The notes beneath the pieces were generated by a model that was not told where the DNA came from, did not search any database, and saw nothing but the letters and a program-made list of their open reading frames with translations. Made by a program: the position numbers and the translations under genes. From assembly GCA_017505745.1 (NCBI GenBank), contig JAFVOP010000117.1, positions 1-44,705 on the forward strand: a stretch of 44,705 bases of DNA, in the 5' to 3' direction. The DNA comes from Clostridia bacterium. GTDB taxonomy: Bacteria; Bacillota; Clostridia; Oscillospirales; CAG-272. Positions 91 through 38,408 of the stretch are shown here, piece after piece. Position 1 is the first letter of the stretch, and each line of letters starts with the position of its first letter.

Positions 91-119
91 TTGTTTTTTC
101 TGCCAATGTATGATATAAT
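91..119 (+). promoter_or_regulatory. Extended -10 promoter of cassette A
   Basis: TTGTTT at 91-96 and TATAAT at 114-119 are separated by 17 bp, with a TG one base upstream of the -10 (TGaTATAAT). The same layout and much of the spacer recur at 37414-37442 before the Nudix gene, which supports a shared cassette promoter. Confidence 0.75.
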
Positions 120-132
120 ATAATCAGTATTA

Positions 133-216
133 TAGGGGTATGGGCTTTGCCCGATGCCTTTGTAATACAAAGGCGAAACTGGCGATAAATAAGAATTTGC
201 GATAAATAAGAATTTG
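133..216 (+). repeat. Left-flank repeat of cassette A, with a tandem 17-mer
   Basis: Positions 133-154 and 161-189 are identical to 37-kb copies in cassette B (22 and 29 bp). GGGC-TTT-GCCC (142-152) and GCCTTTG-TAATA-CAAAGGC (156-174) are small hairpins. CGATAAATAAGAATTTG occurs twice in tandem at 183-199 and 200-216, but only once in cassette B. The region forms the 5' leader of the GNAT gene and ends right at its ribosome binding site. Confidence 0.8.
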
Positions 217-229
217 AGGAGAAAATAAA

Positions 230-661
230 ATGGTACACTTGGTTGATATTGATGGAGGGAATTGGCGAGTTCCCTTAAAGGTTTCAAAATCGCAAGAAGT
301 ATATGTAGCAAACAGCACAACAATCCTTGCACGAGCATATGCATATCGTGACGCTAGAAGTCGTGCATTCTTAATCTACGAAGATGAAACACCCATAGGA
401 ATGGTTTTATATCATGATGAAGAATCACTCGACGCATATATTTTTAGTGAAATATTCATTGATGAACAGTTTCAAGGAAAAGGATATGGGCGAGTTGCAA
501 CGGAGCAGGTGCTCGACAACATGAAAAAAGACGGAAAATATAGCAAGGTCATTCTTTGCTACATTGAGGGAAACGAAGCTGCACAGAAACTGTATAAAAG
601 CTTTGGCTTTGTTGAAACAGACCGTGATGAGGATGAAATTATTATGGAATTGGAACTATAA
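230..661 (+). CDS. GNAT family N-acetyltransferase
   Basis: A 143-residue protein of single-domain GNAT size that should move an acetyl group from acetyl-CoA to an amine of a small molecule or protein. The acetyl-CoA pyrophosphate loop is visible as Q82-GKGYG-R88, after the beta strand SEIFID. The C-terminal signature N115-x2-A-x3-LY...GF128 is also present. The start at 230 is backed by an AGGAG box 8 bases upstream. It is the first cargo gene of cassette A, followed after 38 bases by a methyltransferase. The substrate cannot be told; acetylation of antibiotics, polyamines or ribosomal proteins are all possible in this family. Composition is AT-richer than the core genes, which fits acquisition. 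Confidence 0.85.
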   Translation: MVHLVDIDGGNWRVPLKVSKSQEVYVANSTTILARAYAYRDARSRAFLIYEDETPIGMVLYHDEESLDAYIFSEIFIDEQFQGKGYGRVATEQVLDNMKKDGKYSKVILCYIEGNEAAQKLYKSFGFVETDRDEDEIIMELEL

Positions 662-699
662 GGAACACTTAAGCCAATTCCAATTTTGTGAGGTGGATG

Positions 700-1335
700 A
701 TGGATTCATTTTGGGAGAGCTCATGGAAAAGTGTTAATCCAAGTCGTATTGTGGAGTATATAAACACTTTCAATATGCAATCAGATGATTTGATTAGCAT
801 ATTGCATCAAAATCATATACATAGTGTTTGTGATGCAGGCTGCGGATGTGGAATATATGTACTGAAGCTTGCGGCAAATGGGTTTTGTGTCAGTGGATTC
901 GATGTGTCCTCTCATGCGGTAGAGATTTCGCAAATGCTACTGGACAAGGAATCCTTGACGGCTGAACTAAAAACTGCAAGTATATTGACGACTGGATACA
1001 CAGATGGTCAATTTGACTGCGTAATATCTCGTGATGTTTTAGACCACATAAGTAAGGCTGATGCAACCATAGCGATTAAGGAACTCTGCCGTATTACAAA
1101 AGACGATGGAATTATTCTGTTCACACTGGATTCTTTAGATGAGGAGTACAAAACAGAGCCGCACAGTGTAAACACGGATGGGGACTATGTGTACACTGAT
1201 GGAAAATGGAAAGGAATGTTTTTTCATCCGTACAGTCGAGAAACGGTATATGAAATTATTCCAGCAGGTGTAAAAAGTGAGATAATAGATAGCCATGGAG
1301 AATTAACCATTTTGTTGAGAAAGAATACCGACTAA
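700..1335 (+). CDS. Class I SAM-dependent methyltransferase
   Basis: A 211-residue Rossmann-fold methyltransferase. Motif I is VCDAGCGCG at residues 43-51, followed by the acidic loop FD at 67-68. The stretch FDCVISRDVLDHI matches the motif IV region of small-molecule methyltransferases of the UbiE/Tam type. The start at 700 is chosen because GAGGTG at 690-695 sits four bases upstream; a GTG at 688 and an ATG at 697 are in frame but overlap this box. It probably shares a transcript with the acetyltransferase before it. A stem-loop follows at 1357-1389. Substrate unknown. Together with the GNAT gene it may be a small-molecule modification pair. Confidence 0.8.
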   Translation: MDSFWESSWKSVNPSRIVEYINTFNMQSDDLISILHQNHIHSVCDAGCGCGIYVLKLAANGFCVSGFDVSSHAVEISQMLLDKESLTAELKTASILTTGYTDGQFDCVISRDVLDHISKADATIAIKELCRITKDDGIILFTLDSLDEEYKTEPHSVNTDGDYVYTDGKWKGMFFHPYSRETVYEIIPAGVKSEIIDSHGELTILLRKNTD

Positions 1336-1339
1336 ATTC

Positions 1340-1487
1340 CAATTTGTCGAATAGCAAACGCCGACAGATCTAAAGAATCTGTCGGCGTTAATTATTTGTC
1401 TACCGCTGAGCAATTCCGCATTATATAAACAAACTGAATTATGATTTTTCCGATAAGAACATCACCCATTCGCTGCGGATGTTTTTT
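1340..1487 (+). repeat. Right-flank repeat of cassette A
   Basis: Begins with CAATTTGTCGAA (1340-1351), includes the hairpin above, then ATTTGTCTACCGC and a CCGATAAGAACATCACCCATT segment. The same elements in the same order are at 38265-38408. It ends with AACATC (1458-1463) pairing with GATGTT (1478-1483) and a run of T, which would also stop transcription. Confidence 0.75.
1357..1389 (+). terminator. Stem-loop after cassette A cargo
   Basis: A perfect 13-bp stem (1357-1369 with 1377-1389) with a 7-base loop, followed by an AT-rich tail rather than a clean T-run. The GACAGA/TCTGTC core is shared with the hairpin at 38291-38318. Confidence 0.7.
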
Positions 1488-2066
1488 TTAATGCAACTCT
1501 AAAATACGGTCTGCCATAGCTTCCGCGTCACCTTTCTGATGTGTGACGAAAATTGCAGATGCTCCGGTTTCACGAATCTTTTGTTTCAGCCATACAGTAA
1601 GTTCCCGCCGCGCCTTTTCATCCAACGCTGCAAAGGGCTCGTCAAAAAGATAGAGATCACCGCCGTACAACATGGCGCGCGCCAACGATACGCGACTTCT
1701 CATTCCTCCCGAAAGCTCAGAGGGATAGAGGCGTTGAGTATCCTCCAATCCAATCTCCCGAAGGATCCCGTAGATCTCCTCGTCTGTCACTTTTCGGTCG
1801 GTTACCACGGCGCGCAGATTTTCAGCTACCGTGAGCCAGGGGAAGAGCCGGGGCTCCTGAAAGGCATATGCAATTTTTTGCGCGGAAGAGGTGATTGTAC
1901 CGCGATATCCGCGGCGCAATCCCGCAAGCAGATGCAGCAGGGTGCTCTTTCCGCATCCGGAGGGCCCCATTACGGCGAGAATCTCTCCTTCTTTTAATTG
2001 AAAGGAAAGGTCTTTTAAAACTTCTTTCTTACCGTAGGCAAAGGATAGCTTATCAACCTTTAACAT
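1488..2066 (-). CDS. ABC transporter ATP-binding protein (SsuB/TauB type)
   Basis: A 192-residue ATPase that would power the importer encoded just upstream. Visible motifs are Walker A GPSGCGKST (34-42), Q-loop Q70, signature LSGGM (118-122), Walker B LYLFDEP (138-144) and switch histidine H176. It is short for the SsuB/TauB/NrtD family (usually about 240-260), ending soon after the H-loop. The start at 2066 is preceded by GGAGGTG; a longer upstream reading only runs through the permease gene. It overlaps the permease by 7 bases, so the two are translationally linked. Its 3' end abuts the right flank of cassette A, which raises the possibility that insertion trimmed the C-terminus. Confidence 0.9.
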   Translation of the reverse strand: MLKVDKLSFAYGKKEVLKDLSFQLKEGEILAVMGPSGCGKSTLLHLLAGLRRGYRGTITSSAQKIAYAFQEPRLFPWLTVAENLRAVVTDRKVTDEEIYGILREIGLEDTQRLYPSELSGGMRSRVSLARAMLYGGDLYLFDEPFAALDEKARRELTVWLKQKIRETGASAIFVTHQKGDAEAMADRILELH

Positions 2067-2830
2067 GTGGACACCTCCGTTTCGGAAGGATCTTTTCCAA
2101 TACGATTGAGGAGCGCGGCAAAGACGAACTCGATCACCAGGCTGAGCAGAATCACCGTAAGAGTCCAAGCAAACATATCCGCAGTGAGAATGTACTGCTT
2201 CGCATCTCCGATCATGGTTCCGATGGTATTCCGCGGGGACGCGATGATCTCGGCGGCGATGCCTGCTTTCCATGCAAGCCCCAATGAGGAACGACATGCC
2301 GAAACGAAATAGGGCTTGAGGGAAGGGAGCGTAAGAGTGGTCCAACGCCGCCAAAGTGGCATTTTATAGACTCTTGTAACCTCCCAAAGGTTGCGGTCGA
2401 TCTTGGAAAATCCAACGTCCAGATTGGTCCAGATCAAGGGTAAAACGATCAGGATGGTGATAAAGGTAGGGACCTTCTTCGCGCCGATCCAGATCAGTGC
2501 CAGAATGATAAAGGATGCCACGGGAGTGGCTTTGATCACAGTCATGATTGGAAACAGAAGATCGCGTAAGGGTTTCACGCGCGCGGTGAGCGTGGCAAGG
2601 ATACACCCCGCAAGCACCGCAACCAGGATGCCCGAGAGGACGCTCCAAAGCGAATTGCCAACCACGGTGTAAAATTCCTTGGTCTGCGCCAGCTCCCACA
2701 GCCTTGTCAGAACGGCAAGGGGAGAGGGGAAGAGCAATGGCTTTCCCACTCTCCATGCGGCAAATGCCCAAAGTGCGATCCAGAATGCCGCAACAAGCAG
2801 AATGCGGCAAACACGCCACAGGTGTTTCAT
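2060..2830 (-). CDS. ABC transporter permease (SsuC/TauC type)
   Basis: A 256-residue inner-membrane permease of the BPD_transp_1 family with about six hydrophobic helices, the first at residues 5-28. The cytoplasmic coupling loop lies near WEVTRVYKMPLWRRW, followed by the TLPSLKPYF segment typical of the SsuC/TauC/NrtB group. It forms the channel of the importer with the ATPase and the binding lipoprotein. Its start overlaps the stop of the binding protein by four bases (ATGA), so the genes form one operon. The ligand is not evident; sulfonates, nitrate, pyrimidine precursors and others are carried by this family. Confidence 0.9.
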   Translation of the reverse strand: MKHLWRVCRILLVAAFWIALWAFAAWRVGKPLLFPSPLAVLTRLWELAQTKEFYTVVGNSLWSVLSGILVAVLAGCILATLTARVKPLRDLLFPIMTVIKATPVASFIILALIWIGAKKVPTFITILIVLPLIWTNLDVGFSKIDRNLWEVTRVYKMPLWRRWTTLTLPSLKPYFVSACRSSLGLAWKAGIAAEIIASPRNTIGTMIGDAKQYILTADMFAWTLTVILLSLVIEFVFAALLNRIGKDPSETEVSTC

Positions 2831-3927
2831 TTTGCGTTGTAATAGAAGTCAGCCGCGGGGAGCTTTCCGCCAATCGACTGTGCTTTGATCGCAAGCAGAA
2901 CGTTGAGGTATTCCTCCATGGCGCTCTTCATTTCCGCGCCGTCGAGGTAGCAGACGTTGCAGTTGGGAATTGCCTTTTTGGCTACGTTCGCGTTTGCAAA
3001 AATGCCGTTGTCGGCAATCATCTGCGCGGTTTCCTCCACGTGTTCGGTCAGATATTGGATCGATGCCTCGTAAGCGGTGAGGAAGTTTTCCACGGCCTCG
3101 GGGTTTGCTTCCAAAAAGGCGGTGCGAACGACCACACATCCCTGTACGAGAGAGCCTTCGGTATGCACCTTATCCCACTCGGCGGTCAGATCCATGGCGT
3201 TGGTGACGTTGATGTTTTGTTGCTTTGCAGAGGAAATGGCAATGGTAACCATCGGCTCGGGAAGCACGGCAATATCCACTGCACCGCTTGCAACGGCGTC
3301 GCGCAGATCGGCGGGAAGCTTATAGCTGCTGGAATCGATGTCCACTTGATCGGCACCGGTTCCAATTTCCAAGCCGTTCTTCTTTACCAGCTCCTGTACG
3401 ATAAAGCTGGGGTTTTGCTGGGGCGTGTAGACGGTTTTTCCCTTGAGATCGGCAAAGGATTCCACGGTGGTGCCTTCCTTGGTAAGCAGATAGAGGCAGC
3501 CGAGCGTATTCACGGCCAGAATTCTGACACCTCCCTCGGTGACGTTATAAAGATTTGCCGCGGCGTTGGTAGGAAGGGCAGCAATGTCCACGTCTCCGTT
3601 GATCAGTGCCGAGGTGATCAGAGAAGCGTCGGATTGAACGGTAAAGGTATAGTTCTCGGTAGTGTATGCGCCGTTTTTGGCATCGTTCATCATTTTTGCA
3701 AAGCCAAAGCCGGTGGTTCCGTTTAACGTATAAACGTTGACGTTTACGGGATCGGTTGCAGTATCGGGGTCGGTTTCACTCTCGCTTTCGGTTTCGGTGC
3801 CTTGCGTAGAGGATTCGGTTTCGCTGTCGGTGGTGTCTGCAGGATCCACAGGTTTTTCCACACAGGCAGTCAGGCCGGTGAAGAGAAGTGCAAACACGGT
3901 GAGAAGGGTAAAAATTCGAAGTTTCAT
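2827..3927 (-). CDS. ABC transporter substrate-binding lipoprotein
   Basis: A 366-residue solute-binding protein. A signal peptide ends in the lipobox LTAC (19-22), so Cys22 should be lipidated and the protein held outside the membrane. Residues 25-62 are a low-complexity Ser/Thr/Asp/Glu linker. The rest matches the NMT1/SsuA/TauA fold, with DLKGKTVYTP and the hinge region AVLPEPM. It would capture the ligand and pass it to the permease. It lies 39 bases after the Crp/Fnr-like gene with no terminator between, so one transcript probably covers all four genes. The ligand cannot be assigned from the sequence. Confidence 0.88.
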   Translation of the reverse strand: MKLRIFTLLTVFALLFTGLTACVEKPVDPADTTDSETESSTQGTETESESETDPDTATDPVNVNVYTLNGTTGFGFAKMMNDAKNGAYTTENYTFTVQSDASLITSALINGDVDIAALPTNAAANLYNVTEGGVRILAVNTLGCLYLLTKEGTTVESFADLKGKTVYTPQQNPSFIVQELVKKNGLEIGTGADQVDIDSSSYKLPADLRDAVASGAVDIAVLPEPMVTIAISSAKQQNINVTNAMDLTAEWDKVHTEGSLVQGCVVVRTAFLEANPEAVENFLTAYEASIQYLTEHVEETAQMIADNGIFANANVAKKAIPNCNVCYLDGAEMKSAMEEYLNVLLAIKAQSIGGKLPAADFYYNAK

Positions 3928-3966
3928 GATGAAATTTCCTTTCTTTTATAGTTTGTTTATCTTTTA

Positions 3967-4635
3967 TCAGCGGTAGGCGTTCAGCATACCCTCTGCATCA
4001 AGCAAGGTAAAATTGCGTCCTTCCTTGCGGATAAATCCGTCCTCGGTCAATTTATCAAAGGCGCGGTAGAGCGAGGCTCGTCCTACGTCCAAAAGCTCGG
4101 AAAGGGCAGAGATCGAGGCGTCGAGCCGTACGGTCTCTTTGCCAAGGGAGGCGAGATAAAGCGCCAGCTTTCGCTCGGCACTTCCTGCGCTCAAAAAGCC
4201 AATCTTTCGATTGAGATATCGGATCCGTCCCGAAAGGAATCCGAGATACTGATACAAAAAGGCGCGGTCTTCTTCTAAAAGCTTGCGGATCGCTGCCTCG
4301 GGGATCCAACATATGCGCCCGTTTCCGGAAGCGCGGATCACACTGACGTAGGGGGTATCGCTAAAAAGATTGGCAATGCCAAACATATCTCCTTCATGCA
4401 AAAAACGAAGCAGGGTATTGTGGGATTCCCCCGGTGTGGTTACAGTAGCTGATCCGGCCAGTAAGATTCCAATCTGTCCGCCTTGTTTTTCCGGAGAGTG
4501 CAGCAGCTCTTCGTCGCAAAAATTCAGACATTCAGCCCCACAAGCATCCAGAACATACGCAAGGGTGCTTTTGTTGGCGCTTGCAAGCAGTTCATTTTTT
4601 AATAGCTTTTGAAAATCGCGGTCTGAGATCTTCAT
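3967..4635 (-). CDS. Crp/Fnr family transcriptional regulator
   Basis: A 222-residue regulator with an N-terminal cyclic-nucleotide-like beta-barrel (about 50-115), a dimer helix (about 120-148) and a C-terminal winged helix (about 173-205). It has no clear cAMP-binding arginine/glutamate set. It carries cysteines at 32, 36 and 40 (CX3CX3C) plus C109, a pattern that recalls the iron-sulfur cysteines of FNR but with different spacing. As first gene of the importer operon it is likely the local regulator, and a palindrome at 4648-4663 next to its own -10 box suggests autoregulation. The effector is unknown. Confidence 0.85.
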   Translation of the reverse strand: MKISDRDFQKLLKNELLASANKSTLAYVLDACGAECLNFCDEELLHSPEKQGGQIGILLAGSATVTTPGESHNTLLRFLHEGDMFGIANLFSDTPYVSVIRASGNGRICWIPEAAIRKLLEEDRAFLYQYLGFLSGRIRYLNRKIGFLSAGSAERKLALYLASLGKETVRLDASISALSELLDVGRASLYRAFDKLTEDGFIRKEGRNFTLLDAEGMLNAYR

Positions 4636-4647
4636 AATTGCTCCTTT

Positions 4648-4663
4648 TGTATCATTTGAGACA
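4648..4663. promoter_or_regulatory. Candidate operator palindrome at the regulator promoter
   Basis: The minus-strand sequence TGTCTCAAATGATACA is a near-perfect inverted repeat (TGTnTCA-aa-TGAnACA). It lies directly downstream of the -10 box and covers the transcription start region of the Crp/Fnr-like gene. Position and shape fit a repressor-type site for this protein. Confidence 0.5.
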
Positions 4664-4692
4664 ATTATAACACATTGTTAAGTTTTTGTCAA
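4664..4692 (-). promoter_or_regulatory. Consensus sigma-A promoter of the regulator-importer operon
   Basis: On the minus strand TTGACA (4687-4692) and TATAAT (4664-4669) are both perfect consensus boxes with a 17-bp spacer. Such a strong promoter is compatible with control by repression at the adjoining palindrome. Confidence 0.85.
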
Positions 4693-4757
4693 TAGGATTC
4701 TAAAAAAAATAAAAATATATTTTTGCCTGTTTTTATCTTTAATTTTGAAAAAAGCTC

Positions 4758-4786
4758 TTTACTTTTCGATGATTTTCGTGTATACT
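4758..4786 (+). promoter_or_regulatory. Promoter of the sugar gene group
   Basis: TTTACT (4758-4763) and TATACT (4781-4786) with a 17-bp spacer, 33 bases before the start codon of the nucleotidyltransferase. Confidence 0.65.
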
Positions 4787-4818
4787 TAAAAGAGACTAAC
4801 ATTTGGAGGAAATCAAAC

Positions 4819-5730
4819 ATGACGCTGGTTATTTTGGCGGCGGGGATGGGATCGCGCTACGGTGGACTCAAGCAGCTGGATCCGATGACTGACGCCGGTA
4901 ATTTTATCATTGATTTTTCGATTTACGATGCCATTTATGCGGGATTTGATCACGTGGTGTTCATTATTAAGGAGGAGAATTTGGATCTCTTCCGTGAAAG
5001 CATCGGCAATCGCATTGAAAAAAGAATCAAGGTGACGTATGCATTCCAAAAGACGGATGCGCTTCCCATGCCTTACACGCTTCCCGAAGGACGGGTGAAG
5101 CCGTGGGGAACCGGACATGCGATCTACTGTGTACGGGATATTGTAAAGGATAATTTTGCGGTGATCAACGCCGATGATTTCTACGGAAGAGATACGTTCT
5201 TGCAGTTGGCAAAGCATCTGCGAGGAGCGGATGCCAAAGGCGGTGTGGCGCATCATTGCATGATCGGATTCCGTCTCGGAAACACGCTGACCGAAAACGG
5301 GACTGTTTCGCGCGGCCATTGCAGCGTGGATGCAAACGGCATGCTGCAAAGCGTGACCGAGCGTACCAAAATCATGAAAAAAGAGACCTGCGCTGCTTAC
5401 TTGGCTGATGACGGTGAAACATGGATCGATCTGCCGTTTGACAGCATCGTTTCGATGAATTGCTGGGGCTTTACTCCGGATCTGTTTACCAATCTGGAAT
5501 CGGATTTCTCGGATTTCTTGGCGAATTTGGGAGACAATCCTCTCAAAGCCGAGTTCTATTTGCCCTCGGCAGTCGATCTGCAACGCAAGGCAGGGCTTTG
5601 TGACGTCAAGGTCTATCCCACGCAGTCGGTTTGGCAGGGCGTGACCTACGCCGAGGATAAGGAGCGTGTGAAGGGCGCGATCCGCGCCATGATCAAGGCA
5701 GGGGAATATCCCGCGTCTCTTTGGGATTGA
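4819..5730 (+). CDS. Sugar-phosphate nucleotidyltransferase-like protein
   Basis: A 303-residue protein of the NTP_transferase family, which joins a nucleoside monophosphate to a sugar phosphate to make an activated sugar. The nucleotide-binding signature LAAGMGSRYGGLKQL is at residues 6-20, and the metal site NADDFYG follows mid-protein. The start at 4819 is preceded by TGGAGGA; an in-frame upstream extension runs through the promoter and is discarded. It is followed by galE (48 bases) and galM, so a role in galactose or surface-sugar metabolism is likely. It differs from classic GalU in length and lacks clear proof of which sugar it uses. Confidence 0.75.
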   Translation: MTLVILAAGMGSRYGGLKQLDPMTDAGNFIIDFSIYDAIYAGFDHVVFIIKEENLDLFRESIGNRIEKRIKVTYAFQKTDALPMPYTLPEGRVKPWGTGHAIYCVRDIVKDNFAVINADDFYGRDTFLQLAKHLRGADAKGGVAHHCMIGFRLGNTLTENGTVSRGHCSVDANGMLQSVTERTKIMKKETCAAYLADDGETWIDLPFDSIVSMNCWGFTPDLFTNLESDFSDFLANLGDNPLKAEFYLPSAVDLQRKAGLCDVKVYPTQSVWQGVTYAEDKERVKGAIRAMIKAGEYPASLWD

Positions 5731-5778
5731 TCGAGATCCTTTTTGCTTGGAACTATTTATTGGAAAAGAGGAATACAT

Positions 5779-6795
5779 ATGTCTATTTTAATTACGGGAG
5801 GAGCCGGCTTTATCGGCTCTCACACGGCGGTAGAATTTTTAGAGGCCGGATACGATGTGGTGATCGCGGACAACTATTACAATAGCAGCCCCAAAGCGCT
5901 TGATCGCATCAAGGAGATCACGGGAAAGGATTTCCGCGCATACGAGGTAGATCTTTGCGATAAGGCAGCTCTGGAAAAGGTGTTTGTGGAAAACCCCGAA
6001 ATTGATTCCGCCATTCACTTTGCAGGGCTCAAGGCTGTGGGAGAATCGGTGCAAAAGCCCGGCCTTTACTATTACAACAACCTGCTCAGCACGCTCAATC
6101 TGGTGGAGCTGCTTGCCAAATACGATGCCAAGCGCATTGTATTCAGCTCGTCTGCAACCGTTTACGGAATGCCCAAAACGGTGCCGATCAGCGAGGATTT
6201 TCCGCTTTCTACCACCAATCCTTACGGAGAGACCAAGCTTATGATCGAGCGGATCCTCAAGGATCTGTGGGTCTCCGACAACTCTTGGAGCGTTTCGGTG
6301 CTTCGCTATTTCAATCCCATCGGTGCGCATAAGAGTGGTTTGATCGGAGAAAACCCCAAGGGGATCCCAAACAATCTTCTGCCTTACGTGGCAAAGGTTG
6401 CGGCCGGTCAGCTTCCGTACCTGTCGGTCTTTGGCGATGATTACGATACCAAGGACGGAACCGGAGTGCGTGATTACATTCACGTGGTTGACCTTGCCAA
6501 AGCGCATCTGAAGGCCTTGGAGCGCGCCGAGCGCGTACAGGGCGTAGAGCACTTTAATATTGGAACCGGCACGGGATATTCGGTGCTTGAAATCGTCCAT
6601 GCTTACGAAAAAGCAACGGGGCTCAAGGTGAACTACAAGATCGTGGATCGCCGCCCCGGGGATATCGCCACCTGCTATGCAAATCCTGCCAAGGCCTATG
6701 AGGTGCTTGGATGGCAAGCCGAAAACGGCATTGAAGAGATGTGCCGTGACCTTGCAAACTGGATGAAGAAAAACCCCAATGGATATGGAGAATAA
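5779..6795 (+). CDS. galE: UDP-glucose 4-epimerase
   Basis: A 338-residue short-chain dehydrogenase-type epimerase, the usual size for GalE. It interconverts UDP-glucose and UDP-galactose with bound NAD. The NAD-binding motif GGAGFIGSH lies at residues 7-15. The catalytic elements SSSATVYG and YGETK (Tyr-x3-Lys) are present. Late motifs RRPGDIATCYA and LGWQA are typical of GalE. The start is at ATG 5779 behind AAAAGAGG. It is followed six bases later by galM, so the two form the core of a galactose-use group. Confidence 0.95.
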   Translation: MSILITGGAGFIGSHTAVEFLEAGYDVVIADNYYNSSPKALDRIKEITGKDFRAYEVDLCDKAALEKVFVENPEIDSAIHFAGLKAVGESVQKPGLYYYNNLLSTLNLVELLAKYDAKRIVFSSSATVYGMPKTVPISEDFPLSTTNPYGETKLMIERILKDLWVSDNSWSVSVLRYFNPIGAHKSGLIGENPKGIPNNLLPYVAKVAAGQLPYLSVFGDDYDTKDGTGVRDYIHVVDLAKAHLKALERAERVQGVEHFNIGTGTGYSVLEIVHAYEKATGLKVNYKIVDRRPGDIATCYANPAKAYEVLGWQAENGIEEMCRDLANWMKKNPNGYGE

Positions 6796-6801
6796 AGAAT
6801 T

Positions 6802-7863
6802 ATGATTACGAAACACTTTTTTGGAACAATTGATGCCGGACAGGAGGTGTACACCTACACCCTCAAAAATGCAAACGGAATGACGGTTCGCATTTGCGAA
6901 TTCGGCGGCGCGATTATGGAGATCAAGGTTCCCGACCGTTGGGGAAGACACTCCGACGTGGTTGGCGGATTTGATTCGCTGCGCGACTACGTATTGGCCG
7001 ACGGATACATCGGTGCTTTGATCGGGCGTGTGGGCAACCGCATCGGAAAGGGCAAATATACCTTGGACGGCGTGGAATATTCGGCTTACTGCAACGACGG
7101 TGAGAATACGTTGCACGGAGGCAAGGTTGGCTTCTCACATAAGATCTGGAACGTGAAATGTGTGGATGGGGACGAGCCGAAGCTGATCCTGACTCTGACC
7201 TCTCCCGACGGGGAAGAGGGATACCCCGGCACTCTGAACGTGACCGTGACCTACGCGCTCCTCGCGTCCAACGCGCTCTCGATCCATTACGAAGCAACCA
7301 CCGATAAAAAGACGATCGTCAACCTGACCAACCATGCCTACTTCAATCTGGGGGGATATGCATCCGGAAAGATCTTTGACCACGTGCTCCAGATGGATGC
7401 CGACCGTTACCTTCCCACCGACAAGGGTTTGATTCCCACGGGTGAGATCCGCGCAGTGGACGGCACGCCGTTTGATTTCCGTGAGCCCAAGACCATCGGC
7501 CGTGATTTTGATAAGAGCAACGAGGATATCGCAATTGCCGGCGGCTTTGACCACTGCTTCTGCTTTACCGGTGGCGAGACCAAGGAGCCGGTTTTGCGCA
7601 TTGAGGTGTATGAGCCCAACAGCGGACGGATTATGCAGGTCTACACCGACCAGCCTGCCGTACAGTTCTATTCCGGTAATTTCCTCAATTCCGAGGAGTT
7701 CCCGCTCAAGGGCGGATATCCGCAAAATACCCAGTCTCTCTTCTGCCTGGAAACGCAAAAAATGCCCGACTCGATCAATCATGCGGGATTTGATAACGTT
7801 GTGCTCAATCCCGGCGAAACCTACTCTCACACCGCAATCTATCAGTTCTCTGTAAAGAAATAA
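6802..7863 (+). CDS. galM: Aldose 1-epimerase (mutarotase)
   Basis: A 353-residue galactose mutarotase that speeds interconversion of alpha and beta sugar anomers, feeding the Leloir pathway. The family motifs NRIGKGKY, LTNHAYFNLGG (with the catalytic His) and FDHCF are clear, as is the C-terminal QNFLN-like stretch YSGNFLNSE. It begins six bases after galE and is probably translated from the same message. Length and motif order are ordinary. Confidence 0.93.
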   Translation: MITKHFFGTIDAGQEVYTYTLKNANGMTVRICEFGGAIMEIKVPDRWGRHSDVVGGFDSLRDYVLADGYIGALIGRVGNRIGKGKYTLDGVEYSAYCNDGENTLHGGKVGFSHKIWNVKCVDGDEPKLILTLTSPDGEEGYPGTLNVTVTYALLASNALSIHYEATTDKKTIVNLTNHAYFNLGGYASGKIFDHVLQMDADRYLPTDKGLIPTGEIRAVDGTPFDFREPKTIGRDFDKSNEDIAIAGGFDHCFCFTGGETKEPVLRIEVYEPNSGRIMQVYTDQPAVQFYSGNFLNSEEFPLKGGYPQNTQSLFCLETQKMPDSINHAGFDNVVLNPGETYSHTAIYQFSVKK

Positions 7864-7881
7864 GATCGGCAGGACAGATCA

Positions 7882-8613: not shown

Positions 8614-8621
8614 TTTTATAT

Positions 8622-8659: not shown

Positions 8660-8713
8660 CGGTGTTGGTATATCATGATCCTTTTTTTCATAGATTACAA
8701 TGAGGTGATGATT

Positions 8714-29601: not shown

Positions 29602-29611
29602 AGGAGTTCAT

Positions 29612-30487: not shown

Positions 30488-30523
30488 TGCGGTCAAATAT
30501 TCGAATGGAAAGAGCATAAAGAT

Positions 30524-30979: not shown

Positions 30980-30984
30980 CCGTC

Positions 30985-32652: not shown

Positions 32653-33559
32653 GAAGAGGATTGAATTGAATATGAAACAGAGCAACGGAATCAAAACGCT
32701 TGCGTTGGATATTTTTACGGCGATCATTGCCGGTTTGATCGTTGGAACTGCGTATTTCTTTTTCCAGAACAGCAATGGATTCGCACCCGGAGGTGTGGGC
32801 GGCTTAGCCACTATCACGCACTATCTTCTTGCGGATCAGATCAGCTGGTCGATTTTGATGCTTGCATTCAATCTGCCGATTTTTATTCTGCTTTCGGTGT
32901 TCGTCAACCGTAAGCTGGGTATGATCCTCGTGATTTATATGCTGGTGCAATCCTTTACTCCCCAGCTTTGGGCGGCGTTTGGAGCCATCCCATACTGCCT
33001 TGTCAATAACGGGGAAGATTTTAACGTGGTATTTGCCTGCATTCTGACCGGTGTGATTTCAGGGGTTGGCTTTTCCATTATGCTCAAACGATTTGGTGCC
33101 AGTGGAGGGACCTACGGGATCTCCGCGCTTTTGAAGCGCGCAAAGCCCGATATGAACATTGCTTATGTTGCCTTTATTATGGATGCGAGTGTGGTATTCA
33201 TTGCCTTTTTTGTATACGGGATGAAGGTTACTCCCGTTGTTTGCACGCTTCTCAACCTTTTTATTGCCAATGTTATTGTGGATAATGGCTTGAGCGGTTT
33301 AAAGAACGGCTACAAGTTTGAAATCGTTACGGCACATCCGCAGGAGCTTTCTGCTGAGCTGCTTCAAAAGATGAAGCACGGAGTAACCGAGATCAGGGTG
33401 CACGGAATGTATTCCGATACCGACAAATACATGCTGATCTGCATCATCAACAAGCGGCAGATCGGTGAAATGATGCGTATCCTGAAACGTTATCCCGATA
33501 CGTTTGCAAGCTTTGCAAAGGTGAGCGAGATTTTTGGAAACTTTAAAAGAAAGGTATAA
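32642..33559 (+). CDS. YitT family membrane protein with DUF2179 domain
   Basis: A 305-residue protein with about five to six N-terminal membrane helices (residues 18-225, with GGVGGLATI and ASGGTYGISAL as family motifs) and a C-terminal cytoplasmic DUF2179 domain (about 226-305). Family function is unknown. The start is set at 32642, overlapping recN, with GAGG close upstream. A second in-frame ATG at 32672 would remove ten residues and is also possible. Confidence 0.85.
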   Translation: MENKKRIELNMKQSNGIKTLALDIFTAIIAGLIVGTAYFFFQNSNGFAPGGVGGLATITHYLLADQISWSILMLAFNLPIFILLSVFVNRKLGMILVIYMLVQSFTPQLWAAFGAIPYCLVNNGEDFNVVFACILTGVISGVGFSIMLKRFGASGGTYGISALLKRAKPDMNIAYVAFIMDASVVFIAFFVYGMKVTPVVCTLLNLFIANVIVDNGLSGLKNGYKFEIVTAHPQELSAELLQKMKHGVTEIRVHGMYSDTDKYMLICIINKRQIGEMMRILKRYPDTFASFAKVSEIFGNFKRKV

Positions 33560-33563
33560 CTCT

Positions 33564-34040
33564 ATGATCAAAACCAATGCTATGCGTATACTTTGCGCCG
33601 CAAAGATCTCCTTTGAGGTGTTGGAATACGAGGTGGATGAGAATGATCTGAGCGGGATGCACATTGCCGAGCAGGTGGGGTATCCGCCCGAGCAGATGTT
33701 TAAAACACTGGTTGCCAAAGGTGACAAAACCGGGCCGCTGGTCTTTTGTGTTCCGGTTGCCGAGGAGATCGATCTGCGCCGCGCCGCTGCGATTACTGGA
33801 AACAAAAAGATCGAAATGATCCACGTCAAGGATCTGTTGGCGCTCACGGGGTATATCCGAGGAGGCGTTTCTCCCATCGGCATGAAAAAGAAGTTTCCCA
33901 CGTGGGTGCATGAGAGCGCGTTGCAATTTGAACGTATTACGGTCAGCTCGGGCACGCGCGGCGCACAGCTTTTGCTGGACCGTGACGAACTTTTACGCTT
34001 TATTGACGCCAAAACCGCCGATCTTACCTCGAAAAAATAA
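33564..34040 (+). CDS. ybaK: Cys-tRNA(Pro)/Cys-tRNA(Cys) deacylase, YbaK/EbsC type
   Basis: A 158-residue trans-editing enzyme that frees wrongly attached cysteine from tRNA-Pro. Family blocks are FKTLVAKGDK, FCVPVAEEIDLRRAA and GYIRGGVSPIGMKK. The start at 33564 has AAAGG upstream, four bases after the YitT gene. The next gene, argS, has its own promoter, so this is probably the last gene of the nusB transcript. Confidence 0.9.
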   Translation: MIKTNAMRILCAAKISFEVLEYEVDENDLSGMHIAEQVGYPPEQMFKTLVAKGDKTGPLVFCVPVAEEIDLRRAAAITGNKKIEMIHVKDLLALTGYIRGGVSPIGMKKKFPTWVHESALQFERITVSSGTRGAQLLLDRDELLRFIDAKTADLTSKK

Positions 34041-34058
34041 AGAAATTGCAAAAAGGTA

Positions 34059-34087
34059 TTGAAAAGATATTTGTTTTGTAGTATAAT
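34059..34087 (+). promoter_or_regulatory. Promoter of argS
   Basis: TTGAAA (34059-34064) and TATAAT (34082-34087), 17-bp spacer, 32 bases before argS. Confidence 0.78.
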
Positions 34088-34119
34088 AAGATGTTAATAA
34101 CTGTTTGAAAGGATTTACT

Positions 34120-35853
34120 ATGCAGACCATTAAGAAACGCATTGCCGAGCAGATCGTGGAAAAGGTGCATGCGATCAACTCTGAAGCAGAGCTGAGTGCG
34201 CAGGACGTTGCCGCAATGCTGGAATATCCCCCCGATGCCAATATGGGAGACCTTGCCTTCCCGTGCTTCAAGCTCAGCAAGATCCTTCGCCGCGCACCCG
34301 TGCAGATCGCACAGGCAATTGCCGACGGATTTTCGGATGAGGCGGTAGAGAGAGCCGAGGTTGTGGGCGGCTATTTCAATCTTTATTTGAGTGGTGAATA
34401 TCTGACTTGCCATATGCTTTCCGAGGTTTCCAAAAAGGGGGCGCGCTACGGGTCTCCCGAAACCGGGGAAGGAAGGACGGTTGTGTTCGACTATTCTTCT
34501 CCTAACCTTGCCAAGCCCTTCCACATCGGCCATTTGGGCACCACAGTTATTGGGCATTCGCTCCGAAAGCTGCACGAGTTTGCAGGCTACAAGTGTGTGG
34601 GAATCAACTATGTAGGCGACTGGGGCACCCAGTTTGGTAAGCTGATCGTCGCTTATAAAAAATGGGGAAATCGCGAAACCGTAGAGAACGGTGGCGTGGA
34701 TGCACTGGTCGATCTTTACGTGCGTATCAACAATGCCATTTCCGGAAATGCGGAATTGGGGATCCCGGCAGACCCTGCGCTTGCCGACGAGGCAAGAGCT
34801 GAATTTTGCAAGATGGAGCAGGGGGATGAGGAAAATCTTGCGCTTTGGCGTTGGCTGGTAAAGCTTTCGCTGAAAGCAAACGATGAGATCTATGCACAGC
34901 TCGGTATTACCTTCGATAGCTATAAAGGCGAGAGTAACTATACCAACGAAATGCCCTATCAGGTACAAAAGCTGCGCGATGCCGGGCTTTTAAAATTGGA
35001 TGACGGTGCATCGATCGTGGATCTTTCCGAGTATCATATGCCTCCATGTCTGATCCTCAAGCGTGACGGTTCTTCGCTCTATCCCACGCGTGATATTGCG
35101 GCAGCCTATGACCGCAAGCAGCTTTACGATTTTGACAAATCGGTATACGTCACCAGCGCGGGGCAGAGCTTGCACTTTGCACAGTGGTTTAAGGTTGTGG
35201 AGCTGATGGGTTACGATTGGGCAGATAAGCTGGTGCATGTGCCTTACGGTACCGTAAGCATCAACGGCGCAAAGCTGGCAACCCGTACGGGAAACGTGAT
35301 CCTGTTGCGCGATCTCTTTGCCCTTGCCGCCGAAAAGGTTGCGGGCATTATGGAAGAAAAGAGCCCCAACCTGCCCGATAAGGAAAAGATTGCCGAGCAG
35401 ATCGGTGTTGGCGCAATCGTATTCTACTATCTCTCCAACACCCGTATGAAGGACATCAACTTTGTGATGGAGGATGCCTTGTCCTTTGAGGGGAATACAG
35501 GCCCCTATGTGCAGTACACCTATGCAAGAGCTTGCTCCATCCTTGCCCGTGCAGAAGCACCCGTGGGCGGAAAGCTTGCAGTCAGCACCCCTGAGGAAAC
35601 TGCGCTGGCAAAGGTGCTTTCGATGTTTGAAGAAAAGGTGTGCGAGGCACTGGAAACCTACGAGCCTTCGGTGATCGCGCGCTATATTCTCAGTGTGGCG
35701 GCGGCATTCAACCGTTTTTATCACAACTGCACGATTCTGGGCGCTGAGGATGAAAACGTGAAAAATACCCGTCTGTTGCTCACCGATGCCACCAAAACCG
35801 TTTTGGGGAACGCCTTCGATCTGATCTGTTTGAAAAAGATCGAGAAGATTTAA
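34120..35853 (+). CDS. argS: Arginyl-tRNA synthetase
   Basis: A 577-residue class I synthetase charging tRNA-Arg. The N-terminal ArgRS-specific domain covers about 1-110, the HIGH motif lies in KPFHIGHLGTTVIGHSL, and the C-terminal anticodon-binding helices include YTYARACSILARA and the end FNRFYHNCTIL. No canonical KMSKS is seen; many ArgRS lack it, and KLATRTGNVILL occupies that site. It is a housekeeping gene, far from the tRNA-Arg at 14526. The start at 34120 has AAAGGAT upstream. Confidence 0.96.
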   Translation: MQTIKKRIAEQIVEKVHAINSEAELSAQDVAAMLEYPPDANMGDLAFPCFKLSKILRRAPVQIAQAIADGFSDEAVERAEVVGGYFNLYLSGEYLTCHMLSEVSKKGARYGSPETGEGRTVVFDYSSPNLAKPFHIGHLGTTVIGHSLRKLHEFAGYKCVGINYVGDWGTQFGKLIVAYKKWGNRETVENGGVDALVDLYVRINNAISGNAELGIPADPALADEARAEFCKMEQGDEENLALWRWLVKLSLKANDEIYAQLGITFDSYKGESNYTNEMPYQVQKLRDAGLLKLDDGASIVDLSEYHMPPCLILKRDGSSLYPTRDIAAAYDRKQLYDFDKSVYVTSAGQSLHFAQWFKVVELMGYDWADKLVHVPYGTVSINGAKLATRTGNVILLRDLFALAAEKVAGIMEEKSPNLPDKEKIAEQIGVGAIVFYYLSNTRMKDINFVMEDALSFEGNTGPYVQYTYARACSILARAEAPVGGKLAVSTPEETALAKVLSMFEEKVCEALETYEPSVIARYILSVAAAFNRFYHNCTILGAEDENVKNTRLLLTDATKTVLGNAFDLICLKKIEKI

Positions 35854-35885
35854 AGATTTATTATTGAAAGGATATACAGAATACC

Positions 35886-36620
35886 ATGTCAGGACATAGC
35901 AAATGGGCGAATATCAAGCACAAAAAAGAAAAGACCGACGCCGCGAGAGGCAAAATCTTTACCAAGATCGGTAAGGAGATCACCGTTGCGGTAAAAGCAG
36001 GGGGAGGCGATCCTGCATCCAACTCCAAGCTGCGCGATCTGATTCAGAAGGCAAAAGCAAACAACGTGCCCAACGATAACATTGAGCGTTGCATCAAAAA
36101 GGCGCTTGGCTCTACGGGCGAGACCTACGAGGAAGTCGTATATGAAGGCTACGGCCCCGCCGGTATTGCCGTGATCGTGACCGCTACCACCGACAATCGC
36201 AACCGTACCGCCGGAAACGTACGCGCGTATTTCTCCAAATACCACGGAAATATGGGACAGACCGGTTGCGTGGGCTATCTCTTTACCGATGTTGGAGAGA
36301 TCGTGATCAACAACGAGGACGGCGATGTGGACGAGGACAAGCTGATGGAAACTGCGTTGGAAGCCGGCGCATCGGATTTCAAGGCGGATGGAGAAGTGTT
36401 TGTTGTGACCACCGAGCCCGATGATGTGTACGCGATCCAGGATGAATTAAAGAATGCAGGCTATGAGATCCTTTCGGCAGAAAAGACGAAGCAGGCATCC
36501 AACTACGTAACCCTTGAGAGTGAGGATGACATCAAGTTTATGAATCTTCTCATTGAAAAACTGGAGGATGACGACGACGTGATGGATGTTTATCACAACT
36601 GGGAAAACTGTGGCGACTGA
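35886..36620 (+). CDS. YebC/PmpR family protein
   Basis: A 244-residue protein with the family opening MSGHSKWANIKHKKEKTD and the block PNDNIERCIKKA. These proteins have been described as transcription regulators, and some as ribosome-associated factors that help with polyproline stretches. No promoter is visible between argS and this gene (32 bases), so co-transcription is likely. Confidence 0.93.
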   Translation: MSGHSKWANIKHKKEKTDAARGKIFTKIGKEITVAVKAGGGDPASNSKLRDLIQKAKANNVPNDNIERCIKKALGSTGETYEEVVYEGYGPAGIAVIVTATTDNRNRTAGNVRAYFSKYHGNMGQTGCVGYLFTDVGEIVINNEDGDVDEDKLMETALEAGASDFKADGEVFVVTTEPDDVYAIQDELKNAGYEILSAEKTKQASNYVTLESEDDIKFMNLLIEKLEDDDDVMDVYHNWENCGD

Positions 36621-36656
36621 TCAAAAATAAAGATATAAGAAAAGAGGAAATCAACC

Positions 36657-37340
36657 ATGAAATTGCTTTTGGATACTGCAAATCTTGAGGACATTCGTTA
36701 TTTTAACACGTATTATCCCATTGTTGGCGTTACCACGAACCCTACGATCCTTTCCAAGGAGGGAGGGGACGTATTGAAGCTGCTTCGCTCGATCCGTGAG
36801 ATCATTGGCTCGGAGCGTCAGCTGCACGTACAGGTGACCGAGTCGACCTACGAAAAGATCGTGGAAGAGGCAGAGGCGATCGTGGCGTTCCTCGGAAAGA
36901 ACACGTTCGTTAAGATCCCCGCCACCGATGAGGGGTTGCGCGCGGTACAAACCCTTTCTGCAAAGGGTTACGGCATTACGGTAACTGCGGTACTCACCGC
37001 GGCGCAGGCGCTCCTGGCCTCCAATGCAGGAGCTGCGTACGTAGCTCCTTACGTCAGCCGTTTGGAAAACATTTGTGCTGACGGTGTTGGAACAGTGGCA
37101 GACATTGCCGAGATCTTTGCCATCTCCGGCACAACCACGCAGATCCTTGCGGCCAGCTTTAAGACCGCGAAAGAGGTTTTGGACGTGGCTGCCGTTGGAT
37201 GCCACACCGCAACCGTTGGAAGCGACGTGATGAAGAAGCTGTTGCAGCACCCCACCACCGATACCTCCGTTGCAGGCTTTGCATCGGATTGGAAGACGGC
37301 GTTTGGAGAAAAAACACTTCTTGAATGCTTAAAGAAATAA
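36657..37340 (+). CDS. Transaldolase-like fructose-6-phosphate aldolase (FSA/TalC type)
   Basis: A 227-residue TIM-barrel class I aldolase of the short transaldolase family. The N-terminal LLLDTANLEDI and VTTNPTIL are hallmarks, and the Schiff-base lysine is K86 in FVKIPAT. FSA enzymes split fructose-6-phosphate to dihydroxyacetone and glyceraldehyde-3-phosphate, and close relatives act as transaldolase; sequence alone does not separate them. The start at 36657 has AGAGG ahead. The second cassette starts just downstream. Confidence 0.88.
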   Translation: MKLLLDTANLEDIRYFNTYYPIVGVTTNPTILSKEGGDVLKLLRSIREIIGSERQLHVQVTESTYEKIVEEAEAIVAFLGKNTFVKIPATDEGLRAVQTLSAKGYGITVTAVLTAAQALLASNAGAAYVAPYVSRLENICADGVGTVADIAEIFAISGTTTQILAASFKTAKEVLDVAAVGCHTATVGSDVMKKLLQHPTTDTSVAGFASDWKTAFGEKTLLECLKK

Positions 37341-37401
37341 GAAAAAAACGCGAACAGATTTTCTCTGTTGTTCTTAACGGAGAGTTTGCGAACACAAAAT
37401 T

Positions 37402-37429
37402 TCGGCAGAGAATTTGTTTTCTCTGCCGA
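37402..37429 (+). terminator. Hairpin after the aldolase gene, merging with the cassette B promoter
   Basis: TCGGCAGAGAA (37402-37412) pairs with TTCTCTGCCGA (37419-37429). No T-run follows. The -35 box of the cassette promoter (37414-37419) lies in its loop. In cassette A only the right arm is recognisable, so the left arm may belong to the host site. Confidence 0.6.
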
Positions 37430-37442
37430 TTTGTGGTATAAT
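37414..37442 (+). promoter_or_regulatory. Extended -10 promoter of cassette B
   Basis: TTGTTT (37414-37419) and TATAAT (37437-37442), 17-bp spacer, TGg before the -10. The spacer CTCTGCCGATTTG parallels TTCTGCCAATGTA of cassette A. Confidence 0.75.
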
Positions 37443-37453
37443 GGGGCTAACGG

Positions 37454-37586
37454 AAAGCCTCCCTCCGAGAGGGCGCTGGGTATGCGGTGGAAGGAGCCTG
37501 CGTGACTTTAGGTTTGGATAAATCTTATTGTATCGCGCTCTCCCTCAGTCGCCTACGGCGCCAGCTCCCTCCCGGAGGGAGCCTTT
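37454..37586. mobile_element. MITE-like palindromic element, 133 bp
   Basis: The ends are inverted repeats of 20 bases: 37454-37473 and the reverse complement of 37567-37586 agree except at about three positions. The inside carries a second hairpin, GTCGCC-TACG-GCG-like, in the CTCCCTCAGTCGCC segment. No ORF for a transposase is present. Cassette A lacks it at the same place, so it was probably inserted after the cassettes diverged. It resembles a common intergenic repeat of gut Clostridia. Confidence 0.65.
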
Positions 37587-37600
37587 GGGTGCTCGCAACC

Positions 37601-37696
37601 TTAGGGGTATGGGCTTTGCCCGAAGCCGGCGTTGCTTGCAACGCTGTAATACAAAGGCGAAACTGGCGATAAAACAGAACGATAAATAAGAATTTG
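37601..37696 (+). repeat. Left-flank repeat of cassette B
   Basis: The TAGGGGTATGGG block is identical to 133-154 and the block at 37645-37673 is identical to 161-189. Between them, a GCGTTGC/GCAACGC hairpin replaces the shorter sequence of cassette A. CGATAAATAAGAATTTG at 37680-37696 leads to the ribosome binding site AAAGGAG. Confidence 0.8.
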
Positions 37697-37717
37697 TAGT
37701 TGTGAAAGGAGACATAT

Positions 37718-38197
37718 ATGTTAGCAATAGACCAGTCTGGAAATAAATTATTAGAGCTTATAAAAATCGCTGAAGAGGATGCGGCTTTGCAATTTTCGCC
37801 TATAACGGTCTGCCTGCTTGTTGTAAAGATAGGCAAAGATTATCTTATGGGATTTAATCATTGGCGAAAAAGCTGGGAAATATTTGGAGGATGCCCGGAG
37901 GAAGGTGAAACCATGCGTGAGGCAATGGTACGAGAGGCTAAAGAGGAGCTGGGGATTGATTGTATTCCTGAATGGTTAGGTCTTGCCCACTTTGAAATGC
38001 AACCGGACTATTTCAGCAATGTGGTACGTGAGGAGTATGGTGCAATATTTGGGGTATCATTAGACGAAGAATATTTGGAGCAAATTGAGAAATTGCGCAT
38101 AGATAGAGAGGAAATTGAAAAAATTGCTTTGTTAGGCGAAATTTCTTCTAATGAAGAGATAAGAGAACTTGACAGAAAACTAACTGAGTTCTATTAA
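37718..38197 (+). CDS. Nudix hydrolase
   Basis: A 159-residue Nudix protein that hydrolyses a nucleoside diphosphate linked to another group. The complete box G58-x5-E64-x7-R72-E-x2-E-E-L-G-I80 is seen, so the metal site is intact. The substrate cannot be set: oxidised nucleotides, nucleotide sugars and cap-like ends are all possible. The C-terminal 40 residues are charged and helical. The start at 37718 has AAAGGAG 7 bases upstream. It is cargo of cassette B and AT-richer than neighbouring core genes. Confidence 0.88.
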   Translation: MLAIDQSGNKLLELIKIAEEDAALQFSPITVCLLVVKIGKDYLMGFNHWRKSWEIFGGCPEEGETMREAMVREAKEELGIDCIPEWLGLAHFEMQPDYFSNVVREEYGAIFGVSLDEEYLEQIEKLRIDREEIEKIALLGEISSNEEIRELDRKLTEFY

Positions 38198-38264
38198 GGC
38201 TATTTAAGGATATTGTTGAGTTAAGATGCACAAGAAACGTTCAGTTTGACGGAGCGACAAACTT

Positions 38265-38408
38265 CAATTTGTCGAACGGAACAAGAAGAACCCCGACAGA
38301 CCTTGAAATCTGTCGGGGCTATCTATTTGTTTACTGCGTATTAACTAAAGTAAATTGATTCGTTATTTCTCCGATAAGAATATCGCCCATTGATCTGTTC
38401 GCGTTTTT
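38265..38408 (+). repeat. Right-flank repeat of cassette B
   Basis: CAATTTGTCGAA (38265-38276), a hairpin with CCCCGACAGA/TCTGTCGGGG, an ATTTGTTTACTGC segment, then CTCCGATAAGAATATCGCCC and a T-run to 38410. The elements match 1340-1487 in order and spacing, with many single-base differences, so the copies have diverged for some time. Confidence 0.72.
38291..38318 (+). terminator. Stem-loop after the Nudix gene
   Basis: CCCCGACAGA (38291-38300) pairs perfectly with TCTGTCGGGG (38309-38318) around an 8-base loop. The outer stem bases differ from cassette A (CGCC versus CCCC) while pairing is kept. Confidence 0.7.

Follow-up and report, generated by a model that had tools for sequence, protein, structure and literature searches.

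The described systems closest to the locus considered here are the attC cassettes of integrons, the miniature inverted-repeat transposable elements (MITE) and other non-autonomous transposons, the group IIC introns, the insertion sequences (IS) that enter palindromes, and the repetitive extragenic palindromic (REP) sequences with their REP-associated tyrosine transposases (RAYT). The locus itself comprises two gene cassettes in a stretch of 44,705 nucleotides (hereafter the window), contig JAFVOP010000117.1 of the Clostridia bacterium assembly GCA_017505745.1. With a probability of about 0.78, both units belong to a mobile and for the most part non-autonomous cassette element that often resides in terminator hairpins of its host.

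Integron cassettes are likewise interchangeable modules of diverse single accessory genes with foldable bounds, and their cargo classes are similar to those found here. On the other hand, they form an array beside attI and intI, whereas the present units are scattered in host terminators, have inverted ends and carry their own promoter-like site and terminator; no array platform was seen here, and no integrase search was made. The MITE and other non-autonomous transposons share the inverted ends, the usual lack of a transposase, the existence of short cargo-less versions (here L386 and L132) and a possible 2-bp flanking repeat, but differ from an element with highly variable cargo in a constant promoter/terminator frame whose target is the loop of an intrinsic terminator. 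Group IIC introns have a preference for terminators and insert beside the stem-loop. Integration of such an intron into DNA at a stem-loop is described in the available portions of PMC10190682; this stem-loop guidance is common to both systems, whereas the insertion here lies between the stem arms and the window has no ribozyme match in Rfam. No maturase is present in the cargo among the first 25 of 73 Pfam families. The insertion sequences IS1397, ISKpn1 and IS621 also enter a palindromic, foldable target, which in the available portions of PMC1525189 is the REP palindrome; theirs is a repeated sequence, whereas the terminators here are unrelated in sequence. The RAYT/REP systems (TnpAREP, REPtrons) are resembled by copies that carry a RAYT with in-frame REP and by the GTAG hairpins inside several elements. 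However, some of the RAYT units here possess end motifs and a second gene and are located in a split terminator, and movement as a unit is said not to occur in REPtrons. In-frame REP are reported for TnpAREP subclass 2.4 (PMC6006769), and RAYT flanked by inverted REP appear in the available portions of PMC2817692. Variable-gene cassettes between terminator halves are not described in the portions of PMC2817692, PMC1525189 and PMC10190682 that were available, and PMC6211511 contains the word 'terminator' only in a reference. A search of titles and abstracts gave no description of the system among the matches listed, subscription journals and bioRxiv being mostly outside its coverage.

Units of the window and their family

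The 22-mer TAGGGGTATGGGCTTTGCCCGA is located at 133-154 and 37602-37623, its sole places in the window at up to 3 mismatches, and its mean number in 100 shuffles of the window is 0. The units also share the 29-mer TGTAATACAAAGGCGAAACTGGCGATAAA (161-189 and 37645-37673) and CGATAAATAAGAATTTG, which is tandem in unit 1 (183-199 and 200-216) and single in unit 2 (37680-37696). On the right side, CAATTTGTCGAA (1340-1351 and 38265-38276) and CCGATAAGAA (1450-1459 and 38371-38380) are common to both, and a GACAGA/TCTGTC hairpin is found in each unit. These blocks bear out a sequence-only reading of the window, which had proposed two units with the same flanks, different cargo and a common promoter design (TTGTTT-17-TATAAT in both). 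That each unit has its own promoter-like site also agrees with the contrast to attC cassettes drawn there.

The genome that contains the window (2.34 Mb, 121 contigs, 87% complete) has the 22-mer at 8 places (up to 3 mismatches), the second left block at 9 and the 67-base left block at 10. Its left blocks are distributed over eight contigs, the C24 pair being back to back and the window pair separated by 37 kb, and the 146-base right flank has same-strand partners near several of them (C24 twice, C74, C98, C116 twice). With left block and right flank at many places, the window units are therefore members of a family. An exact pattern scan of named species genomes gave at least 111 stretches, in records titled Clostridia, Clostridiales, Oscillospiraceae or Eubacteriales except for one chance Fibrobacter match; many are metagenome-assembled genomes (MAG) with ruminant gut sources in their titles. 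The left block is present in 15 of the 35 genomes of the window's genus, with up to 15 places in one genome. At the level of the order, the exact 22-base pattern is found in 24 of 394 genomes and 19 of 168 genera, and the reversed-pattern control is 0 in every genome. The format is thus a multicopy family of cassettes of about 1 kb in gut Clostridia, apparently mobile. By eye, contigs C67 and C46 of the window genome both end inside the same cassette with RAYT and GNAT genes. Copy numbers in MAG may be underestimated, because assemblies break inside these elements.

The counts below refer to 129 pattern-defined copies, from which the Fibrobacter match (L141, a coding sequence) is excluded. An ACAAA anchor is present in 124 of these copies and recognisable ends on both sides in 48; 107 have a cargo open reading frame (ORF) of at least 50 amino acids, 102 of them with enough downstream sequence. 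The second copy in L072 is due to a chance match inside a gene and has been left in the counts of 129, 107 and 102, as well as in the cargo groups given below.

The inner unit follows a constant order: the promoter-like site TTGTTT-17-TATAAT (sigma-70-like), the left block, the gene and the right hairpin. The left block contains a pair of small hairpins, either TAGGGGTATGGGCTTTGCCC with GCCTTTGTAATACAAAGGC or a longer variant, followed by GGCGATAAA..AATTTG. The cargo is one gene per unit, two in window unit 1, and its ORF begins at a median of 55 bases past the left-block anchor and has a median length of 149 amino acids. A hairpin of the type AACCCCGACAGA...TCTGTCGGGGTT is located 3' of the gene in 89 of 102 copies, a count without a control of its own; the random control belongs to a looser test, in which hairpins of at least 8 bp occur in 80 of 102 downstream stretches and 5 of 77 random ones. 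The stem shows compensatory changes, the second column being C-G in 70 copies, G-C in 17 and T-A in 2, and the fifth G-C in 75, A-T in 11 and G-T in 3. Right flanks that diverged but kept their pairing, as anticipated from the two window units, are a property of the family, and the flanks tend to bracket accessory genes.

Between the promoter and the left block there is nothing in unit 1, a MITE-like palindrome in unit 2, a DUF559 gene in 6 copies and a RAYT gene or remnant in 15. With a loose pattern, similar palindromic repeats are found 5' of the left block in many sister copies among the matches listed. The earlier remark that no recombinase is near holds in the window and fails for the sister copies, where these RAYT and DUF559 genes are an addition to that reading, as are the outer ends and the split host terminator described below.

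The 100 non-redundant cargo ORF, chosen by a length rule so that some short ones may not be genes, fall into 91 groups by BLASTP linkage, one being the chance L072 match. Among the first 25 of 73 Pfam families, GNAT models have up to 9 members each and NUDIX is present in 3; single examples are MatE, EamA, HAD, histidine phosphatase, glyoxalase, HTH, peptidase S51, Imm33 and several DUFs. In PADLOC, 14 models were matched, each by one or two members. Cargo-less elements also exist, L386 and L132 being in split terminators (by eye, with one mismatch in the L132 stem) and L035 being cut by a contig end. GNAT, NUDIX, glyoxalase and small-DUF cargo in single-gene modules with folded boundaries is also familiar from integrons, and the units could be dispersed integron cassettes (SALIN/CALIN type) with unusual attC sites. 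This is barely conceivable, given that the copies are scattered, have their own promoter-like site and are bounded by inverted end motifs inside a split terminator; none of the retrieved loci has a pair of strict left blocks less than 3 kb apart on the same strand, and no search for an integrase was made.

Element ends and split terminators

Unit 2 extends from 37360 to 38392 and is enclosed by a perfect 21-bp inverted repeat, the halves of which are at 37339-37359 and 38393-38413. Where the flanks are long, both sides are linked by an exact inverted repeat of 14 bases or more in 29 of 58 copies, compared with 77 of 638 mispaired controls, some of which are matches between shared repeats. The outer flanks of two-ended copies reach a complementarity score of at least 12 in 25 of 48 (3 of 473 mispaired controls) and of at least 13 in 19 of 48 (0 of 473). 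Nearly all of the 30 stems with a score of at least 11 consist of an A-run, a G+C stem and a T-run, and their sequences are unrelated between sites: the outer stem varies by site while the element stays constant. For the testable copies it is strongly supported that these stems are intrinsic terminators cut in the middle. Just inside the stem, TT is present on both sides at 26 of the 30 sites.

The element ends, read inward, are forms of TTCTTAGCGGAGAA or TTCTCATAAGGAAGTT, and inverted motifs are recognised on both sides in 48 of the 129 copies. In the window the end-motif pattern has two occurrences, the right ends of both units, where 0.09 are expected. The left ends show better folding than controls, a stem of at least 7 being formed in 16 of 30 versus 7 of 30. 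Among the retrieved loci, no element with the same ends and other contents is found at a split stem of at least 9, and 27 of 27 paired ends with such a stem contain the left block or the GGGC/GCCC hairpin.

The left end of cassette 1 is absent from the window because the contig begins inside the element. Contig C82 of this genome ends with the sequence of window positions 1-141 (a 141-bp contig overlap), and beyond the overlap C82 carries the left end hairpin GGCGTGATACTCTTAACGGAGTATCACGCC and a left stem half, AAAAAAGCATCCGCGGC, located via the end-motif search. A search for the left stem half at up to 1 mismatch gave only the window's own right half; the C82 half differs at two bases. The pairing of AAAAAAGCATCCGCGGC with CGCTGCGGATGTTTTTTTT uses two G-T pairs, and its duplex energy is -25.0 kcal/mol; among 30 other right halves the best value is -13.4 kcal/mol. 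Given this overlap and pairing, C82 and the window would be joined, and element 1 would then occupy 1587 bases between the halves.

The unit flanks proposed earlier therefore stand and their boundaries do not, since the true ends are further out, unit 1 beginning on C82 and ending at 1470. Likewise, the blocks and the hairpin of the right flank are retained, whereas the final T-run, then assigned to the cassette, belongs to the host terminator if the terminators are split.

The outer repeats could instead be made by the element itself, through fold-back duplication of the flank, with no pre-existing terminator. The diverged empty sites described below, which do not allow a base-for-base alignment, leave some room for this explanation. 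It is nonetheless very improbable, considering the terminator anatomy of nearly all 30 stems and the intact terminators at the equivalent sites of three genomes; stems with G-T wobble (cassette 1) or mismatches also suggest ordinary terminators.

Related structures were observed at other loci. Near 65042 of C21 in the window genome (L392, 1981-2100), AAAGGAAAAGCTC and GAGCTCCTTTTT flank, by eye, a solo end hairpin about 36 bases long, which is possibly a minimal or deleted element in a terminator. At C63 (1-120) and C46 (1440-1560) of the same genome, another hairpin family, AACACCACCAAAG..CTTTGGTGGTGTT, directly precedes the same end motif, and neither a left block nor cargo is visible. In L394 (G013, C215; 1663-2007), end motifs 344 bp apart surround another hairpin array (GATGAAATC repeats); this locus has no strict left block and no clear split terminator, and is perhaps a sister family of elements.

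Empty sites and proposed exchange of cargo

In three genomes (G021, G009 and G018) the neighbour genes of unit 2 are adjacent and convergent, with an intact terminator hairpin between them and no cassette. These genomes are of other species, with protein identities of 39-41% for the left gene and 77-82% for the right gene. The empty sites in sister genomes expected by the sequence-only reading were in this way found for one of six sites tested.

Common cargo is present in 18 copy pairs; the L072/L072 pair consists of two overlapping stretches of one locus and is not counted. L220 of the window genome and L076 (RGIG1645, goat) are at unrelated sites and alike from end to end (93%, -297..687 versus -276..686), the likeness stopping near the element ends. 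In 7 of the 18 pairs the likeness does not start before the left block but at or inside it (-4 to -33). When the comparison was repeated at the looser E 1e-5, more upstream likeness appeared in 2 of these 7, namely 34 bases in L047/L094 and 52 bases in L059/L142; the latter is on the promoter side, and the gap between promoter and left block is filled by a palindrome in one copy and a RAYT in the other. L095 and L106, from sheep and goat MAG of different species, share 433 bases at 99% identity, a stretch that stops where the L106 contig ends. The same cargo thus recurs in different frames and genomic sites. In L106, moreover, the right hairpin of one cassette contains the start of a second cassette, and this hairpin is intact in L227, a relative of the first cassette; this is the sole nested case found, and its right junction is past the contig end.

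On this comparative evidence the units are mobile. An immobile alternative, in which the flanks are the shared regulatory leader and terminator of a regulon, would account for the conserved promoter-like site, leader and terminator, and co-regulation is conceivable. It is extremely improbable in view of the split host terminators, the empty site, the same cargo at different sites and in different species, and the patchy distribution (15 of 35 and 24 of 394 genomes). The exchangeable cassette format suggested earlier, with flanks that supply promoter and terminator, is supported by the diversity of the cargo, its recurrence in other frames and sites and the 89 of 102 right hairpins.

In the favoured explanation, a terminator hairpin would receive the whole element in its loop, probably at TT and with a 2-bp duplication, and a transposase acting in trans would recognise the inverted ends. 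Landing in a terminator should do little harm, since the genes stay uncut and a promoter and terminator arrive with the cassette. Movement would also take place at a second level, at which recombination between copies, at the left block and right hairpin that they share, would shift cargo between frames, and one frame could therefore carry many different genes. The exact duplication and the route by which cargo is exchanged are what we infer from these comparisons.

Several points weigh against the interpretation of the units as elements inserted in terminators. Only one of the six sites gave an empty allele, the other five showing none in the fetched stretches, although the search for six joined flanks scored only 8 candidates per genome and its lack of matches therefore means little. 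Because the empty sites are from other species, their stems are only positionally equivalent and not alignable base for base. At least one end motif is unrecognised in 81 of 129 copies, through contig ends or divergence, and the complementarity score is below 11 in 18 of the 48 testable copies. The TT may be part of the element ends instead of a duplication, and right ends fold no better than controls (3 of 30 versus 5 of 30). The copy set is biased to the pattern ACAAAGGCGAAAYYGGCGATAA, and hence to copies that keep the left block. Finally, no transposase is common to all copies.

The features of the window are compiled in Table 1. An ABC transporter ATPase gene (PF00005) is located to the right of unit 1. 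Unit 2 is flanked by a gene of the transaldolase/fructose-6-phosphate aldolase family (PF00923) and one of the EPSP_synthase family (PF00275), which we take to be murA. A count of flanking-gene orientations based on the longest ORF misread this right-hand gene and does not enter the comparisons. An Rfam scan of the window gave no match at the gathering score except a tRNA, and no family for the blocks.

Table 1. Features of the two cassettes in the window.
Feature	Coordinates	Strand	Evidence
End of small-hairpin (AATATCACT) array, cassette 1	1..90	+	Left end of the element on C82, same genome
Promoter-like site, cassette 1 (TTGTTT-17-TATAAT)	91..119	+	Sequence; spacing equal to cassette 2
Left block, cassette 1: GGGC/GCCC hairpin, GCCTTTGT/ACAAAGGC hairpin, GGCGATAAA, tandem CGATAAATAAGAATTTG	133..216	+	
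Cargo 1a, GNAT acetyltransferase	230..661	+	PF00583, E 2.6e-14
Cargo 1b, class I methyltransferase	688..1335	+	PF13649, E 2.1e-15
Right block, cassette 1: CAATTTGTCGAA and GCCGACAGAT/ATCTGTCGGC hairpin	1340..1396	+	Type counted in 89/102 copies
Right end, element 1; inward motif TTCTTATCGGAAAA at 1446-1459	1446..1470	-	End-motif scan
Right half, split host terminator of cassette 1 (CGCTGCGGATGTTTTTTTT)	1471..1489	+	Pairs with AAAAAAGCATCCGCGGC on C82
Left half, split host terminator of cassette 2 (AAGAAAAAAACGCGAACAGAT)	37339..37359	+	Perfect 21-bp inverted repeat
Left end, element 2 (TTTCTCTGTTGTTCTTAACGGAGAG)	37360..37384	+	
Promoter-like site, cassette 2 (TTGTTT-17-TATAAT)	37414..37442	+	Sequence
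MITE-like palindromic repeat between promoter and left block, cassette 2	37454..37586	.	26-nt inverted arms 37454-37479 / 37561-37586
Left block, cassette 2 (long-hairpin variant)	37602..37696	+	
Cargo 2, NUDIX hydrolase	37718..38197	+	PF00293, E 7e-11
Right block, cassette 2: CAATTTGTCGAA and CCCCGACAGA/TCTGTCGGGG hairpin	38265..38318	+	
Right end, element 2; inward motif TTCTTATCGGAGAA at 38367-38380	38367..38392	-	End-motif scan
Right half, split host terminator of cassette 2 (ATCTGTTCGCGTTTTTTTCTT)	38393..38413	+	Equivalent site in G021, G009 and G018 is an intact terminator

Candidate transposases and significance

The candidate engines are the RAYT carried by some copies and another transposase that would act in trans. 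If RAYT, a HUH/Y1 tyrosine transposase, is the engine, the autonomous element would be composed of promoter, RAYT, left block, cargo and ends, and the copies without RAYT would be moved in trans. Single-stranded DNA would be excised and inserted, with a preference for the single-stranded loop of terminator hairpins. In 15 of 129 copies, a RAYT ORF or remnant is located just 5' of the left block, with 169-219 amino acids in eight of the copies, and 14 of the 15 have their stop codon at the first block bases. Both ends are present in seven RAYT copies, and three of these are in split stems (L082 with a score of 17, L142 with 13 and L126 with 11), the others scoring 7, 7, 7 and 9. The NCBIfam model REP_Tyr_transpos (NF047646) matches 7 of 7 scanned RAYT ORF at E 4e-14 to 2e-20, all below the curated cut-off, whereas Pfam Y1_Tnp is above its cut-off in only 1 of 7; the HxH motif is invariant in 8 of 8. 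RAYT and left block coincide in 8 genomes against 4.7 expected (p 0.02), an association that is partly built in, as some RAYT are inside elements. The better folding of the left ends is also consistent with such an engine, and among elements with the same ends only the RAYT-bearing copies could be autonomous relatives.

On the other hand, only 3 of the 16 distinct RAYT stop codons in the genus are followed by a strict left block; 5 more have, by eye, a degenerate one, and the rest are alone. No RAYT was detected in the cassette-rich genomes G016 and G021, both incomplete. Inverted ends with a direct TT repeat, as found here, are not known to be typical of IS200/IS605 elements. It is therefore possible, but short of likely, that RAYT drives the movement.

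An inverted pair of GTAG-type REP hairpins is present inside the reading frame of all 8 RAYT ORF examined (L082, L100, L135, L065, L142, L221, L124 and L126), where the REP encode peptides such as GQSRTPVPT. The in-frame hairpins match each other in 6 of the 8 and differ in L082 and L124. A further unit at 13837-17352 of C67 in the window genome (L335) contains a promoter, a RAYT with one stop, a degenerate left block, GNAT cargo, the right hairpin, REP and a right end, by eye in an ACAAGCC..GGCTTGT split stem. The IS200-type Y1 transposases of the genus were also considered as the engine and rejected: the four loci examined, L235, L236, L238 and L242, look like ordinary IS copies without cassette ends. 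By eye, L236, L238 and L242 are just past the stop codons of host genes.

More tentative still is the idea of an integrase-free gene-cassette system of gut Clostridia that would use intrinsic terminator hairpins as universal attachment sites and be driven by a RAYT-type single-strand transposase. The new terminator hairpin brought by each cassette could receive the next one, L106 being the sole such case seen.

If the element moves as proposed, it would constitute a common, apparently unnamed route for the spread of accessory genes among gut Clostridia, including acetyltransferases, hydrolases, immunity proteins, transporters and many unknown families. The splitting of terminators between genes would then be a safe-landing strategy. 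The left block, the right hairpin and the end motifs together provide a sequence tag for harvesting accessory genes in large numbers. The system would also allow a test of whether the structure of a hairpin is by itself sufficient to specify a target for transposition.

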